Part shown: positions 32,459 to 37,851 of the stretch, piece after piece
Position numbering within the stretch: position 1 is the first letter of the stretch
Layout: every line of letters begins with the position of its first letter
IMG/VR virus record: IMGVR_UViG_3300030419_005995
Coordinates: 1 to 51,196 of that record
Strand: one strand, 5' to 3'
DNA from: a virus
Length of the DNA: 51,196 bases
Notes under the pieces: generated by a model
Told to the model about the DNA's origin: nothing
Database searches by the model: none
Seen by the model: the letters and a program-made list of their open reading frames with translations, nothing else
Made by a program: the position numbers and the translations under genes

Positions 32459-33643
32459 TTGCTCTTCCAAACTCTTGATGATAAAAAACATTGCGTAGGC
32501 ATCTATCAAGGTGGAGACATTTTTTACGACGCAATCCCCGGTGACCTCACAAAAACATGGTCATATGCACCATATTTGCAAGGAAGAGATATTCAATACG
32601 CTAGTTTGTATGTTGGCGGGCGCAGCCTGGGCGAAGTCTGCCCGCAAGATCTGAAAGAAGAGTGGTCTAGGATTAGCAACAAAATGAAGGCTTTCATAAA
32701 GGCCTTTACAGTCTCAAAAATTGACATAAAAGACGTTTGCTTGTTCTCCCTGATTCCTGACACGTTTTTGCTTGAATGGTGTGAAATAAAGAACAAAATT
32801 TGTGGCTATGTCTTTGAAAATTATGAAAAACCAAGCAACTATGATTTTCTTTTGGATCTCGCTACAATAACAGAGAAGATAAAGGCGCAGAAACTGAATA
32901 TTGACCCGAGTGAGTTAAAAACTCAGCTTGGATCTTATCGTTCGAGAGCATTTTTAAAGAAGTTGAATAGGATTGACCCCTTTATCTATTACAACATCTT
33001 TGGCACCATCACTGGTCGATTGACTACGAAGACCAATTCTTTTCCTATTTTGACTTTGGACAAGAAACATCGTAGAGTTTTGAAACCAAATAATGATTTG
33101 CTCGTCGAGCTTGACTATAACGCAGCTGAGTTGAGAACTTTCCTGGCATTGAGCGGCCAAGAACAGCCACAAGAGGACTTACATACTTGGAATATTGAAA
33201 ATCTCTTTCAAGGAGAGGGCACCCGCGAGGAAGCAAAGGTAAGATTGTTCGCTTGGTTATATAATCCAAATTCTGATGACTATTTGTTGAACCGAACGTA
33301 TGATCGTGAAAAGCTGCTTAAAGAAAGTTGGAAGAATGGTAAAATTACCACCAAGTTTGACAGGACCATAGAAGTGGACGAGCGCCGCGCCCTGAACTAT
33401 TTAATACAGAGCACTTCTTCGGACCTTTTTCTGAGACAGATGATAAAAATTAGCAAGATCCTTGAAAATGCAAGGTCCTATGTTGCGTTCAGTTTGCATG
33501 ATTCTGTTATATTAGATTTTGCTGCGGAGGACAAACATCTACTACCCAGAATCATTGAAGTTTTCGGCGATACGCAGTTTGGAAAATATCTTGTCAACGC
33601 TTCCATTGGCAAAGATTATGGAAACATGAGGAAATTTAAGTGA
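32459..33643 (+). CDS. Short family-A DNA polymerase
   Basis: The 394-residue protein has the palm motifs of family-A polymerases: TGRLTTKTNSFPIL (185-198), motif A DYNAAELR (219-226), motif B as R256-x3-K260-x3-F264-x3-Y268 (the usual Gly residues are Ala and Asn), the IQST-SSDLF helix (316-324), and motif C LHDS (346-349, His-Asp kept, Glu replaced by Ser). There is no recognisable 3'-5' exonuclease domain and the thumb and fingers are much reduced. TTG is the probable start: AGAGG lies upstream and the next Met is far inside. T4 itself uses a family-B enzyme. A separate 5'-3' exonuclease is encoded at 39946. Confidence 0.8.
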   Translation: MLFQTLDDKKHCVGIYQGGDIFYDAIPGDLTKTWSYAPYLQGRDIQYASLYVGGRSLGEVCPQDLKEEWSRISNKMKAFIKAFTVSKIDIKDVCLFSLIPDTFLLEWCEIKNKICGYVFENYEKPSNYDFLLDLATITEKIKAQKLNIDPSELKTQLGSYRSRAFLKKLNRIDPFIYYNIFGTITGRLTTKTNSFPILTLDKKHRRVLKPNNDLLVELDYNAAELRTFLALSGQEQPQEDLHTWNIENLFQGEGTREEAKVRLFAWLYNPNSDDYLLNRTYDREKLLKESWKNGKITTKFDRTIEVDERRALNYLIQSTSSDLFLRQMIKISKILENARSYVAFSLHDSVILDFAAEDKHLLPRIIEVFGDTQFGKYLVNASIGKDYGNMRKFK

Positions 33644-34458
33644 ATGTCATAGGTTTAGGTAATTGTGGGTGCAATATTGCCAAAGAATTTGGTAGATATC
33701 CTCAGTATAATGTATTTTTGATTGACACAGAGCCACATCACGGTGAGAACTTTTATTTACTGACCGAACAGGTCAACCCAGAACAATATGAGCGAACATG
33801 CCCTGATTTAGGTAATTTCTTAAGATGTGATGGAGAGGTAATTCTTGCCCTTGGTGGAAGCGGTTCTATTTCTGCTGCATGCTTGCGTGTTTTAGAAAAA
33901 GTAAAACATTGCAAGATTACAATCTTATATATAAAGTCTGATCAAGACTTGTTGAGTGAAGTTGGACGTTTGCAACAGCGTGCCACGTTTCATGTGCTTC
34001 AAGAATATGCTAGATCAGGTGTGTTTGAAAGAATCTTCCTTATCGACAACACCCTGGTGGCAGATATGATAGGTGAAGTTTCAATCGCCAATTACTATCA
34101 AACAATAAATCAAACAATAGCACCAGTTGTGCACTTTATCAACGTATTCAACAATAGCAAGCCGGTAATGAGTACTTTTTATTCCTTGGCGGACACATCG
34201 CGCATATGCACTTTGGGAATAGTCGATGTTGAGACCGGAGAAGAAAAAATGTTTTTTCCTCTTGACAATCGAACCGAGACCCGGTATTATTACGCCATCA
34301 GTGAGAAATCCTTGAAAGAGGATGGTACACTGCATAACAAAATCAAGTCGCAGGTCAAAAAGAAAGATGAGAAAACAAGCTTCGGAATATTTGAGACTGG
34401 GTATGATAATAATTTCTGTTATTCGCTCGCATGTTCACGACAAATTGTTCAAATTTGA
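33640..34458 (+). CDS. FtsZ/tubulin-like GTPase-fold protein, degenerate
   Basis: The 272-residue product follows the tubulin/FtsZ fold in order: VIGLGNCGCNIAKEF (3-17; FtsZ VIGVGGGGGNAV), VFLIDTE (25-31; FFAVNTD), VILALGGSGSISAA (67-80; the GGGTGTG T4 loop), FLIDNTLVADMIG (133-145; ITIPNDKLL), IANYYQTINQTIAPVVHFINV (149-169; AANDVLKGAVQGI...), then a C-terminal domain. The T7-loop region reads INVFNNSK (167-174), so the catalytic Asp residues of FtsZ (NLDFAD) are absent and the tubulin signature is partly lost. It starts with GTG overlapping the polymerase stop (GTGA), suggesting coupling. It lacks an FtsZ-type C-terminal tail. GTP binding is possible; hydrolysis is doubtful. Confidence 0.7.
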   Translation: MNVIGLGNCGCNIAKEFGRYPQYNVFLIDTEPHHGENFYLLTEQVNPEQYERTCPDLGNFLRCDGEVILALGGSGSISAACLRVLEKVKHCKITILYIKSDQDLLSEVGRLQQRATFHVLQEYARSGVFERIFLIDNTLVADMIGEVSIANYYQTINQTIAPVVHFINVFNNSKPVMSTFYSLADTSRICTLGIVDVETGEEKMFFPLDNRTETRYYYAISEKSLKEDGTLHNKIKSQVKKKDEKTSFGIFETGYDNNFCYSLACSRQIVQI

Positions 34459-34466
34459 TTTTTTAC

Positions 34467-34495
34467 TTGACTTCCACATTAAAGAATAGTATAAT
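34467..34495 (+). promoter_or_regulatory. Sigma70-type promoter for the DUF262-like gene
   Basis: TTGACT (34467-34472), a 17-base spacer and a perfect TATAAT (34490-34495) make a near-consensus host sigma70 promoter in the 108-base gap after the FtsZ-like gene. It points to early expression by host RNA polymerase. Confidence 0.9.
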
Positions 34496-34566: not shown

Positions 34567-35793
34567 ATGATTAGAGGATTCACATTGAAGGAATATGCCG
34601 CCGCCGCAAAAAAGGTGTGGTACGATCCCGCGTTTGATCGTCGCTATGGTGCATGGGTAGATACTAAAAAACGTAACTTTCTTAAAAATGTCATCGATGA
34701 CAAGGTGGACTCCATGCCTGTCTGGGCAGATATCGATGAGTGCCTGTCACACTCAGTGCTGGTGGGCGATAGGGGAAGCAAGAAGAAGCTGCAAGATCTT
34801 AAAGATAGGGGATACAAATATATTTCTCTCGATGGCAAACACAGAACAAAAACTGTTGAAGCCTTTATGAACAGTGATTTGACAATCACGCACACAATTA
34901 AGGATTGCGAAGGGCAGATTCATAACATTACCAATAAGCATTGGTGCAAGTTCCCCAGCGAGGTCAAGCCGCAGATCTTTATGTCTAAAATCAATGTTCG
35001 CTTGGTGACAAGCGAAGTTTATGGTAATTTTGGAAAGCGGTACCGGGACTTAAATGATGGTGAACCTCCTAATCCCCAAGAGGTGCGCAACTCATATTCA
35101 TCTCCTGTGGCACAATATATTCGCGACGAAAGTGAGAGACTCAGGAGTGCTATGGAGCGCGTAGTCAAGAACAAATATATTGAAAGGATGATGGATGACG
35201 AGCTTGTAGTAAAGACCTATATACACCTGATCCAGAGATATAATCGTCAAGCGTTCAGTGTAGATGCCGGATTTCAACCCACTGTCTTAGATAAGTGGTA
35301 CACTGTTGGTAATGATGTCCGCAACATCGACTCCAACGGTTCCCCTTACATTAAGGCGGAGTTTGATCGTGCCAAGCAGATCATGAACACTGTCAGTAAA
35401 ATGCTTCTGGAACAGGAGGACGTACCAAACAGCAAAACAGTTTCTCACAAGATGTATTGGGCTTTTGTCTTTGCTGCGGAGTGGGCTCACAACGAAGATT
35501 ATAATGTTGTGGACTACATTACGCTTACTGGTGTGCTTAAAAATCTTGATGATGAGCTTAGTAGTCTCTCATTGACTGAGCATAGCAAAGAGGAAGAGCG
35601 CAAAAGAAAGAACGGGGAAGAATTGCAGGATATTGATAGAAATCAGTACTATTATGCATGGGCTCAATTAGTCCACCAGTCAAAGTACCGTGTGCAGCGC
35701 CGAGACGCTTTTGTTGCTCGTATTAAGAAGGAGGTTTCCAAAAATGGACCATCTTCTATGGGCTTGGTAGAGATGCAATCTGCGGCTGCATGA
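34567..35793 (+). CDS. DUF262-like (ParB/Srx-fold) protein
   Basis: The 408-residue product has the core marks of DUF262-type proteins: ISLDGKHRTKTVEAF (86-100; usual form LDGQQRLxTL), a strand MSKINVRLVTSE, then a segment resembling FxxLNxGxxPxxxExRNA (RYRDLNDGEPPNPQEVRNS), followed by a long helical C-terminal half rich in Glu, Lys and Arg. DUF262 occurs in GmrS-type subunits of type IV restriction and in many phage proteins of unknown role. There is no HNH motif like that of GmrD. It has its own strong promoter, palindromic operator and AGGAGG site, so it is probably early and regulated. Host takeover or anti-defence is possible. Confidence 0.65.
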   Translation: MIRGFTLKEYAAAAKKVWYDPAFDRRYGAWVDTKKRNFLKNVIDDKVDSMPVWADIDECLSHSVLVGDRGSKKKLQDLKDRGYKYISLDGKHRTKTVEAFMNSDLTITHTIKDCEGQIHNITNKHWCKFPSEVKPQIFMSKINVRLVTSEVYGNFGKRYRDLNDGEPPNPQEVRNSYSSPVAQYIRDESERLRSAMERVVKNKYIERMMDDELVVKTYIHLIQRYNRQAFSVDAGFQPTVLDKWYTVGNDVRNIDSNGSPYIKAEFDRAKQIMNTVSKMLLEQEDVPNSKTVSHKMYWAFVFAAEWAHNEDYNVVDYITLTGVLKNLDDELSSLSLTEHSKEEERKRKNGEELQDIDRNQYYYAWAQLVHQSKYRVQRRDAFVARIKKEVSKNGPSSMGLVEMQSAAA

Positions 35794-35935: not shown

Positions 35936-36673
35936 ATGGGAATTGACATGAAGAAGATGCGCGAGAAGTACGCTGCACTCAAAAACCGAGGAGAGGGCAC
36001 AAGGAGTTCTTTCTGGCGTCCGCAGGATGGTGATCAGACCATCCGCATCGTTCCAACCGCTGACGGTGATCCGTTCAAGGAGTACTGGTTCCACTACAAC
36101 TTGGGCAAGAACTCAGGTTTCCTGAGCCCGAAGCGTAACTTTGGCGAGGATGATCCCCTCAATGACTTTGTTCGTTCCCTTTATCGAGAGAACACTGAGG
36201 AGAGCATCAAGATGGCTAAGAGCCTGTCCGCTCGCCAGCGATTCTTTGCACCGGTGGTTGTGCGCGGAGAGGAAGAAATGGGCGTGCGAGTTTGGGGTTT
36301 TGGTAAACAAGTCTATGAGACAATCCTTGGGCTGGTACTTAATCCAGAATATGGGGACATTACAGATCCAGAAACAGGCATTGATCTTACCATTAATTAT
36401 GGAAAGCCTGCTGGCGCACAGTTCCCACAAACCAAGCTTACTCCCAAGCGTCGATCAACTCCTCTGTTTGAGGAGACCTCCCGCATTCAGGAGGCTCTTG
36501 ACAGCGTGCCCGACTTCTCACAGCTTTTTGAGAGGAAGACACCTGCCGAGGTTCAGGCCATGCTTGACGAGTTCCTGCTTGGCGAACAGGATGCCGAAGA
36601 TGCCTCCTCTGAGACGGTGAAATACACCAACACCACCTCTGAGGTTGACAGAGCTTTTCAAGAGTTGATGTAA
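35936..36673 (+). CDS. 32: Single-stranded DNA-binding protein (gp32-like)
   Basis: This protein coats ssDNA during replication and recombination. The 245-residue product has a basic N-terminal segment (KMREKYAALKNRGEG), then a core starting SSFWRPQDGDQTIRIVP and KEYWFHYNLGK, the entry of the gp32 OB fold in marine T4-like phages, and an acidic C-terminal tail (EQDAEDASSE...). T4 gp32 has about 300 residues and a zinc-binding His/Cys cluster; here the corresponding stretch (LSPKRNFGEDDP) has no Cys, so the zinc site is lost. AGGAGG precedes the start. It has its own promoter and terminator, so it is a single-gene transcript suited to high output. Confidence 0.82.
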   Translation: MGIDMKKMREKYAALKNRGEGTRSSFWRPQDGDQTIRIVPTADGDPFKEYWFHYNLGKNSGFLSPKRNFGEDDPLNDFVRSLYRENTEESIKMAKSLSARQRFFAPVVVRGEEEMGVRVWGFGKQVYETILGLVLNPEYGDITDPETGIDLTINYGKPAGAQFPQTKLTPKRRSTPLFEETSRIQEALDSVPDFSQLFERKTPAEVQAMLDEFLLGEQDAEDASSETVKYTNTTSEVDRAFQELM

Positions 36674-36689: not shown

Positions 36690-36715
36690 GGGGGGCTTCG
36701 GCCCCCCTTTTTTTT
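36690..36715 (+). terminator. Strong intrinsic terminator with UUCG tetraloop
   Basis: GGGGGGC, loop TTCG, GCCCCCC and eight T residues form a perfect 7-bp stem with a very stable tetraloop, 16 bases after the SSB stop. The uvsX start follows 15 bases later, so uvsX must rely on read-through, antitermination or an unseen promoter. Confidence 0.95.
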
Positions 36716-36729
36716 ATAAGGAGGAATAA

Positions 36730-37851
36730 ATGGTAAACAAGGGTGGTATCTCCATTGAAGAGATGCGAAAGATGCTTAATAAAAAAGCAGGAATGACTGT
36801 TGCTCACAATTTGAAGGAAGAGAACCCGACAGAGGTTACAGAGTGGATTCCAACTGGGTCACACTGGCTGGATTCAATCATCTGTCGAGGCCAAAGAGCA
36901 GGAATCCCAGTAGGCAAGGTGACGGAGATCGCCGGACTTGAAGCCACGGGTAAATCTTATATGGCAGCCAAGATCGCTGCGAACGCTCAGAAAATGGGTA
37001 TCACCGTTGCTTACTTCGATAGTGAGAGTGCAATTGACCCATCTTTCCTTGAGAATGCAGGCTGCGATGTAGAGAATCTAATTTATGTTCAGGCTCAATC
37101 CGTTGAGATGGTGCTGGAATCTATTGAAGAGTTTCTGAAAACAGGTGGAAAGTTTCTTTTTGTCTGGGATTCTTTGGCTCTTACCCCTTCAATCAATGAT
37201 GTGGAGGGTGATTTCAACCCGATGTCACAGATGGCAGTCAAGGCCCGTATCCTTGCAAAGGCGATGAGCAAGCTGACCATCCCGATTGCGAACACTGAAT
37301 CTACATTCCTTGTTCTCAATCAGTTGAAGACAAACATCACCAGAAACCCCAATATGGCTCTCGTTGAGCCGTATGTGACACCCGGTGGTAAAGCAATGAT
37401 TTATGCTTATAGTCTTCGCATTTGGCTTACTGGTCGCAAGTCTAAGGCAGCTTACATCCAAGATGATAATGGTTTCCGTATTGGTTCCGAGGTTAAATCA
37501 ACCTTGAAGAAGAGCCGCTTCGGAACACAGGGTCGTCAAGCAACTTTTAAAATCCTTTGGGGTGACGAAGTTCGCATTCTGGATGAGGAGAGTTGGCTTG
37601 AAGCAATCAAGGCTTCCGAGCACATTACAATCAAGGGCGCGTGGTATTCTCTTGACATGGGAAATGGGGAAGTGGTAAAATTCCAGCCAGGAAGGTGGAT
37701 GGAGAAAATGAAGGACGAAGCTTTCAGATCCAGAGTATTGGAGGTGATGGATGAACACGTTGTCCAGAACTTTAAAACACGTCAGGGAAACCCTGAAGAT
37801 TTCTATGATGTAGACGGCGAAGAATCAGGAGACGGTAGTGATGATCAATGA
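36730..37851 (+). CDS. uvsX: UvsX/RecA-like recombinase
   Basis: This enzyme pairs DNA strands in recombination-dependent replication and repair. The 373-residue product (T4 UvsX 391) has Walker A GLEATGKS at 69-76, VAYFDSESAIDPSF (93-106), Walker B FLFVWDS at 142-148 and VLNQLKTN with the conserved Gln/Asn signal region, then a C-terminal domain with an acidic tail (DGEESGDGSDD). AAGGAGG lies before the ATG. It is followed by overlapping genes for a restriction-like protein and a methyltransferase. It starts immediately after a terminator. Confidence 0.93.
   Translation: MVNKGGISIEEMRKMLNKKAGMTVAHNLKEENPTEVTEWIPTGSHWLDSIICRGQRAGIPVGKVTEIAGLEATGKSYMAAKIAANAQKMGITVAYFDSESAIDPSFLENAGCDVENLIYVQAQSVEMVLESIEEFLKTGGKFLFVWDSLALTPSINDVEGDFNPMSQMAVKARILAKAMSKLTIPIANTESTFLVLNQLKTNITRNPNMALVEPYVTPGGKAMIYAYSLRIWLTGRKSKAAYIQDDNGFRIGSEVKSTLKKSRFGTQGRQATFKILWGDEVRILDEESWLEAIKASEHITIKGAWYSLDMGNGEVVKFQPGRWMEKMKDEAFRSRVLEVMDEHVVQNFKTRQGNPEDFYDVDGEESGDGSDDQ

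Follow-up and report, generated by a model that had tools for sequence, protein, structure and literature searches.

What does a protein with the fold of tubulin do when its gene starts within the end of a DNA polymerase gene? The question is raised by IMG/VR virus record IMGVR_UViG_3300030419_005995, whose entire length of 51,196 bases we call the window, and by a 272-residue open reading frame that follows a short family-A-like DNA polymerase gene in it. The family of tubulin-fold proteins to which this frame belongs is referred to as A, and L-numbers denote individual loci; single-protein and profile searches of IMG/VR, taken together, yielded 84 distinct A loci. The predicted structure leaves us with very little doubt that A has the fold of the tubulin/FtsZ superfamily, and we are equally confident that its linkage to a single clade of short family-A-like polymerases is nearly obligate. 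The features on which these statements depend are the following.

32459..33643, plus strand: short family-A-like DNA polymerase, 394 residues, TTG start (Pfam DNA_pol_A 4.6e-13; PHROG DNA polymerase 1.7e-16; alignment A4, comprising the window polymerase and 29 of 68 near-complete polymerases)
33628..33632, plus strand: ribosome-binding-site-like GAGGA, 7 nucleotides 5' of the GTG of A and within the polymerase gene (read from the sequence)
33640..34458, plus strand: tubulin-fold protein of the A family, 272 residues, GTG start (open reading frame, alignment, predicted fold and substitution ratios)

The predicted fold and the reality of the A gene

An AlphaFold2 model of A, computed from an alignment of 71 sequences (A2: the window protein and 70 of the 84 loci, with 14 near-duplicates dropped by eye, one 5'-cut), reached a mean predicted local distance difference test score (pLDDT) of 95.5 and a predicted template modelling score of 0.92. 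It displays a GTPase domain, a long central helix H7 and a C-terminal domain in tubulin order, and the fold alignments extend over residues 1-272, C-terminal domain included. Every one of the 50 matches listed by Foldseek and of the 50 listed by VIA-align is a chain of the tubulin superfamily. Against the PDB, Foldseek placed TubZ (4ei7) first, with an E value of 7.4e-13, the remaining 49 matches listed being FtsZ, while VIA-align, for which rows differing by at most 1 Z count as tied, gave CetZ 3zid as the best match (Z 25.5; 250 of 272 residues aligned, 2.7 A), followed by FtsZ 2r6r (Z 23.5; 262 aligned, 3.5 A) and TubZ 4ei7 (Z 23.5; 269 aligned, 3.3 A). A library of viral structures returned six matches at E<=0.001, four of them named as FtsZ, cell division protein, tubulin or tubulin-like; a putative tubulin-like protein of Edwardsiella phage pEt-SU was matched at 4.4e-07. 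The preliminary description of this DNA, made from its letters, had called an FtsZ/tubulin-like protein, and model and fold comparisons agree with that call, even though the window protein is not identified by any Pfam or PHROG model.

How visible is this relationship in the sequence? The window protein had no Pfam match above cut-off (the best were DAGK_cat at 0.005, TrkA_N at 0.034 and Sacchrp_dh_NADP at 0.078), no PHROG match better than 0.022, and a sequence search of solved structures returned nothing below an E value of 0.9. Among the 71 A members, 11 matched the Tubulin model PF00091 at E<=1, the best at 0.003 and below the curated cut-off; in a search of 11 records PF00091 exceeded the cut-off in none, as against 13 of 14 control genomes. 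Direct profile comparison with hhalign was weak, both for FtsZ (E 0.35, probability 0.2 per cent) and for a sister phage tubulin, B, introduced below (E 0.06, probability 0.9 per cent), and these values count against the superfamily assignment. Because of them, membership rests on the predicted fold; sequence by itself would not settle the family of A. Sporadic matches were also seen to the Pfam model DEAD (3/71 members, best 0.00054), to PHROG 24038, which has no function (5/71, best 7.1e-05), and to PHROG 29734 (6/71, best 0.0017).

These weak scores lend themselves to another reading, namely that A is a Rossmann protein of a different class, for instance an NAD-binding one, that merely resembles FtsZ: DAGK_cat, TrkA_N and Sacchrp_dh_NADP head the Pfam matches of the window protein, and TrkA_N, matched by 9/71 members (best 0.0046), comes second to Tubulin and close behind it. 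The tubulin-superfamily matches run across the whole model in all rows listed, and NAD-binding Rossmann folds include neither the C-terminal domain nor H7. We consider this alternative scarcely credible and strongly disfavoured by the whole-chain matches; the preliminary description had named a different Rossmann fold that lacks a tubulin-like C-terminal domain as an outcome fatal to its proposal, and this was not what emerged, the C-terminal domain being matched in the fold comparisons.

The A gene itself is real and under purifying selection. Ratios of nonsynonymous to synonymous substitution (dN/dS, by the Nei-Gojobori method) are about 0.06-0.09: 0.085, 0.086 and 0.077 among the window, L009 and L001, and 0.091 and 0.059 in two pairs of another clade, all of them rough given synonymous distances of 1.3-2.4, which are near saturation; in three further pairs the silent sites had reached saturation. 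The GTG start described earlier and its overlap with the polymerase stop codon (33641-33643), which amounts to 4 nucleotides, were confirmed, and the strings quoted from the protein (VIGLGNCGCN, VFLIDTE, ALGGSGSIS, FLIDNTLVADMIG and INVFNNSK) are all present in the frame.

The window protein as a single query recovered 7 relatives in IMG/VR, and the profile search at least 533 pattern-matched stretches encoding an A relative, a count of stretches rather than genes, since both patterns can hit the same gene; 80 loci were kept. No relative was found among 50,697 phage records with either the window protein (E<=1) or the L007 protein (E<=10) as query. A cellular origin was considered and rejected: the sole match in genome_contigs, CP070664.1 (L183; one of 342 stretches in a two-pattern search that hence detects close relatives only), is itself a phage polymerase-A-gp32-UvsX stretch. 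That record is the bacterial chromosome of a 'candidate division WOR-3' metagenome-assembled genome, and the open reading frames flanking the stretch on both sides carry unread (X) runs. An error of scaffolding or binning may have placed the phage stretch there, or a phage may have inserted into the chromosome; the X runs could also come from the collection's masking.

A conserved nucleotide pocket and a degenerate T7/H8 face

What has the family kept of the tubulin machinery, and what has it lost? The elements concerned lie within the A gene of the window, and a canonical tubulin, B, found in related records, serves as an internal control.

33652..33669, plus strand: GLGxxG, T1-like nucleotide loop, residues 5-10 (Gly7 and Gly10 71/71; Gly5 70/71)
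33853..33873, plus strand: GGSGSIS, reduced T4-like phosphate loop, residues 72-78 (family alignment)
34048..34050, plus strand: codon of Asn137, the guanine-site Asn of T6 (71/71)
34084..34152, plus strand: central helix H7, residues 149-171, carrying Asn157 (71/71) and ending inside INVFNNSK (model and alignment)
34162..34203, plus strand: T7/H8 region, residues 175-188, no helix in the model and no conserved acid (model and alignments)
L086:1030-2121, minus strand: canonical FtsZ-like tubulin B, 364 residues (alignment A3)

The pocket is the conserved part. Gly7, Gly10, Asn137 and Asn157 are invariant in the 71 A members, and Asn137 and Asn157 align, with weak profile scores, with the T6/H7 guanine-site region of Escherichia coli FtsZ and of B; A thus has counterparts of both the guanine-binding Asn in T6 and the polar residue in H7. 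The T4 signature [SAG]GGTG[SA]G occurs in 0/71 A members, but also in 0/38 members of B, and the looser GG[GST]G[ST] in 5/71 of A. Because the signature GGGTG(S/T)G is not found in A, we claim relatedness by fold only.

The opposite face of the monomer is degenerate. The preliminary description had placed the equivalent of the FtsZ motif NVDFAD at INVFNNSK, which proved to be the wrong position: residues 167-174 are the last five residues of H7 and three more, and INVFNNSK was ruled out as T7 by the model, in which residues 149-171 form a single helix, with the profile comparison to B in agreement. That comparison, at a weak score, pairs residues 175-180 of A (PVMSTF) with SPIQTF of B, directly N-terminal to the two conserved Asp residues of B, which puts T7 of A at about residues 175-186. 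The earlier statement that both T7 Asp residues are missing was too strong as worded; the first acid is indeed absent from the window protein (Ser182), while Asp185 could stand for the second. Across the family, an acidic residue is found at position 181 in 1/71, at 182 in 34/71 and at 185 in 39/71 members, and no column of residues 168-191 is acidic in more than 44/71. Nor does the model predict any helix between residues 172 and 188, so that with neither conserved acids nor a modelled H8 the degeneracy of the catalytic-loop region, as originally described, is borne out.

The sister family B lends weight to the missing helix. B was found in IMG/VR in 107 matching stretches, of which 80 loci were kept, and alignment A3 holds 38 of the 42 frames extracted from these listed loci (L125 was dropped for its wrong frame; L096, L100 and L120 as cut or similar). 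All 38 match PF00091 at E<=1, the best at 5.8e-09, and at least one B member falls below the Pfam cut-off. GGGTG[ST], Asp249 and Asp252 are each kept in 38/38. The B model (pLDDT 89.8), for which TubZ is the best VIA-align match (Z 32.8), has H8 at residues 250-257 and H9 at 278-288, and the same modelling pipeline therefore detects H8 where it is present. By eye, B is accompanied by a sigma-factor-like and a small zinc-ribbon-like open reading frame. The BFVD entry A0A6J5RW92 ('FtsZ Cell division GTPase') may be of the B type.

According to PMC3678025, the T7 loop, the base of H8 and strand S9 make up the protofilament interface shared by tubulin, FtsZ and phiKZ TubZ, and in PMC8936486 it is stated that the T7 Asp positions the catalytic water and T7 mutants assemble poorly. 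Judging from the predicted monomer, loss of the T7/H8 face would be expected to abolish hydrolysis and ordinary filaments. If H8 is missing as modelled, static or co-polymerising filaments of the ordinary kind, both suggested in the preliminary description, become less likely, and one-sided capping or a role outside filaments more likely. Several observations pull in the other direction. Positions 182 and 185 are both acidic in 20/71 members and either is in 53/71, and a [DE]xx[DE] string lies within residues 172-188 in 22/71; to go by these residues, some A members could hydrolyse GTP. Furthermore, a predicted monomer that lacks H8 does not prove that filaments are absent.

Conceivably, A forms filaments of an atypical kind, through contacts other than T7/H8, and with them positions phage DNA or replication factories in the manner of PhuZ. 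The model has the full tubulin fold with its C-terminal domain; known phage tubulins form filaments, as stated in PMC4244570 and PMC10299810; and contacts can be unusual, a crystal form of 201Phi2-1 PhuZ described in PMC3678025 having a very small longitudinal contact and a long C-terminal tail. The A model, in contrast, is without H8, a component of the shared T7/H8/S9 interface set out there, and the A tail is short, 1-16 residues past column 270 with a median of 6. We therefore judge an atypical filament unlikely. Nor is this tail of the long FtsZ type; FtsZ carries a long linker and a C-terminal conserved peptide.

A second possibility involves B directly. The contig of L042 (G003) carries A together with a canonical 364-residue B, and the two genes co-occur in 8 records, as might be expected of a two-tubulin system in which A co-polymerises with or regulates B, as alpha- and beta-tubulin do. 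Against this, only 2 of 18 A-bearing records, some of which may be fragments, were found to contain B; it was not found in the large ones of 187,750, 203,859, 190,629, 159,483 and 186,398 bases, and A was not found in 19 of 27 B-bearing records. An A-B heteropolymer was rejected as a general rule on the count of 2/18, and we hold the two-tubulin system to be very improbable.

Linkage of A to one clade of DNA polymerases

If A is neither an ordinary filament former nor a partner of B, what does it accompany? The polymerase lies upstream of A in 78 of the 84 family loci, and 79 of the 84 have a polymerase by profile. Four of the loci without one, L022, L023, L063 and L082, offer 7-497 nucleotides of room; the fifth is L072. 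Polymerase stop and A start are separated by at most 20 nucleotides, and often overlap, in 59 of 75 loci, a count that omits 3 of the 78 in which the polymerase is a fragment of 200 residues or fewer. With the polymerase as bait, 581 stretches matched, and of the 80 best loci among them 78 carry A, 74 of these within about 0.8 kb; the two without A have 466 and 9 nucleotides of room. At least 6 of the 80 are on contigs shared with the A-family search. The pairing with a family-A-like polymerase that had been noted for this one record is accordingly conserved across the A family, and it holds whichever of the two genes is used as bait.

The B-bearing records offer a further view of this linkage. 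There are 27 of them, corresponding to 25 of the 80 B loci, chosen for long contigs, and two reached through A. The 8 that contain A are exactly the 8 that contain this polymerase clade (E 1e-157 or better); A was not found in any record whose only polymerase is a distant one (8 records, 1e-10 to 1e-20) or in which no polymerase was found (11 records). A Pfam family-A search agrees, detecting polymerases in these 16 of the 27 records. The distant polymerases at L271-L276 (L273 and L274 being alike) had no A within roughly 1 kb or more on each side, and none was recognised within about 4 kb of the distant polymerase of LR756508.1, a 484-kb uncultured phage, in a very small search whose best A2 score was 7 bits (E 0.012). 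There are two clades of short family-A-like polymerases of about 400 residues, the type at 32459-33643 of the window and that of L271-L276. In 25 of the 30 polymerases of alignment A4, counted by eye, the motif that corresponds to HDE in classical Pol I reads HDS or HDA.

The divergence of A also follows that of the polymerase more closely than that of gp32 or UvsX. For 39 of the 41 loci that have all four genes, pairwise distances of A correlate with those of the polymerase at r 0.74 (partial 0.49, as against a maximum of 0.19 in 500 permutations), with those of gp32 at r 0.59 (partial 0.11) and with those of UvsX at r 0.63 (partial 0.20).

How far does this linkage speak for a shared function? 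Several points tell against reading it in that way. At L072, another long open reading frame fills the 2000 nucleotides upstream of A and no polymerase is present there, and in four bait loci (L194, L200, L217 and L226) A lies 1.5-2.3 kb from the polymerase. The bootstrap interval for r(A,polymerase) minus r(A,UvsX), -0.01 to 0.18, includes zero; the distance correlation may be expected in part from adjacency alone, and tight linkage can reflect co-expression alone.

Co-expression is itself suggested by the sequence downstream of A, where the neighbouring features are these.

34467..34495, plus strand: strong sigma-70-like site TTGACT-17-TATAAT just 3' of the A stop (a similar site at the A stop in 58/85)
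34567-35793: 408-residue open reading frame between A and the gp32-like gene (PHROGs of unknown function, best 4.3e-07)
35936..36673, plus strand: gp32-like single-strand DNA-binding protein (Pfam, PHROG)
36730..37851, plus strand: UvsX/RecA-like recombinase (Pfam, PHROG)

With a pattern chosen after a first look at the data, a promoter-like site falls within -50..+60 of the A stop in 58/85 cases, of the polymerase stop in 1/79, and in 180 of 4200 random windows. Since such a site is found at the A stop and rarely at the polymerase stop, the polymerase and A genes appear to close a single transcription unit. A relative of the 408-residue frame (E<=1e-4) was detected at only L030 and L042 among the 84 A loci. 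After the gp32-like gene, at 36690-36707 of the window, a strong terminator-like hairpin, GGGGGGCTTCGGCCCCCC, is followed by a T run.

Elsewhere the window encodes a terminase, portal, major head protein, tail sheath and tape measure, together with an exonuclease, a DnaB-like helicase, a ribonucleotide reductase and a thymidylate synthase. By this gene content, the window comes from a phage that has a sheathed tail and, in part, T4-like replication genes. The label 'T4-like' given at the outset fits the UvsX- and gp32-like genes and the tail sheath, and is to be taken as a statement about gene content, not phylogeny.

A candidate role at the replisome

In conjunction, the pocket, the degenerate face and the linkage lead us to the following model. 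A would be the final product of the transcription unit that contains the polymerase gene, would bind GTP or GDP, and would hydrolyse GTP poorly or not at all. Without a T7/H8 face it would form no ordinary head-to-tail protofilaments, and could instead act as a subunit or switch of the replisome, be it a tether, a scaffold or a nucleotide-sensing accessory of the polymerase. Several stretches outside the nucleotide loops are highly conserved (YPQY at 20-23, PExYE at 47-51, LQEYARS at 120-126, ETGEEKxFFxLD at 198-209 and YYYA at 216-219), and these may serve as a partner contact surface. That A is a GTP-binding, probably non-hydrolysing candidate accessory of the replisome has, in our estimation, a little short of an even chance of being correct. 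A more specific form of this proposal, a tubulin outside the cytoskeleton that acts as a putative GTP-sensing subunit of the polymerase holoenzyme in a large group of uncultured phages, its pocket a replication switch rather than a means of filament assembly, is somewhat less likely, and we offer it as speculation.

The same combination of a kept pocket and a lost T7/H8 face would also suit a one-sided tubulin mimic acting on host FtsZ, whose poisoning the preliminary description had envisaged. The putative GTP-binding top face of A would dock on the T7 face that the terminal FtsZ subunit exposes, and its defective bottom face would stop growth of the filament and block division. PMC8936486 tentatively has the incoming FtsZ subunit bind through its top surface to the T7-exposing end, and Gp0.4, SulA and MciZ are described, in PMC13423816, as acting on the same FtsZ surface. 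It would, however, be odd for a factor of host takeover to be tied almost obligately to a single polymerase clade and to be missing where the only polymerase is a distant one (8 records), and position 31 of A, near D46 of the FtsZ top face, is by eye mixed rather than conserved. We regard capping of host FtsZ as distinctly improbable, and retain the replisome accessory as the preferred reading.

How does A relate to tubulins already described? We regard A as a family of its own, new and divergent, that shares the tubulin/FtsZ-superfamily fold and is not FtsZ, TubZ or PhuZ. TubZ of Bacillus plasmids and phages (4ei7, 2xka) matches A over the whole chain at 16-18% identity, and differs from it in the T7 acids and H8 discussed above. 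TubZ partition systems have an adjacent TubR and centromere repeats; A lies beside a polymerase rather than beside any evident partition system of the TubR type, with a gp32-like gene also among the neighbours of the family. Archaeal CetZ (3zid, 4b45), which gave the best VIA-align score, is 15% identical, cellular and longer (342 residues in 3zid against 272). FtsZ shares with A the T1, T6 and H7 pocket pattern and the domain order, and A departs from it in its replication-gene neighbours, its reduced T4 signature, the loss of T7/H8 in the model and the lack of a long tail. B, which accompanies A in 8 records, is set apart by GGGTG[ST], Asp249/Asp252 and helix H8. PhuZ, the spindle tubulin of nucleus-forming jumbo phages with chimallin, is likewise phage-encoded and of the tubulin superfamily, and no sequence match to A was obtained in the 50,697 phage records with two A members as queries. 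FtsZl1 and FtsZl2 are, according to PMC2875224, divergent FtsZ-superfamily families also defined by sequence and gene context; they are cellular with a proposed function in membrane remodelling, and T6-H7 is not confidently identified in FtsZl1, whereas A keeps it.

The phage tubulins described in PMC4244570, PMC3678025 and PMC10299810 form filaments by which DNA is moved or centred, and in a jumbo-phage survey (PMC7824862) tubulin correlates with a multi-subunit RNA polymerase, unlike the association seen for A. No tubulin-like protein paired with a phage DNA polymerase was found among the papers listed from the open-licence literature, which is weak evidence of absence, as most subscription papers lie outside it.

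What would such a protein mean for the superfamily and for these phages? A is a widespread family, with 84 loci and at least 533 matching IMG/VR stretches, that Pfam and PHROGs leave unidentified, and it provides a testable link between a putative GTP-binding protein and a phage replisome. Through it, the role of tubulin-like proteins in phages for which no nucleus or spindle is known becomes open to experiment. If our proposal is correct, a tubulin fold tied to a polymerase and stripped of its filament face would show how the tubulin fold can be repurposed.

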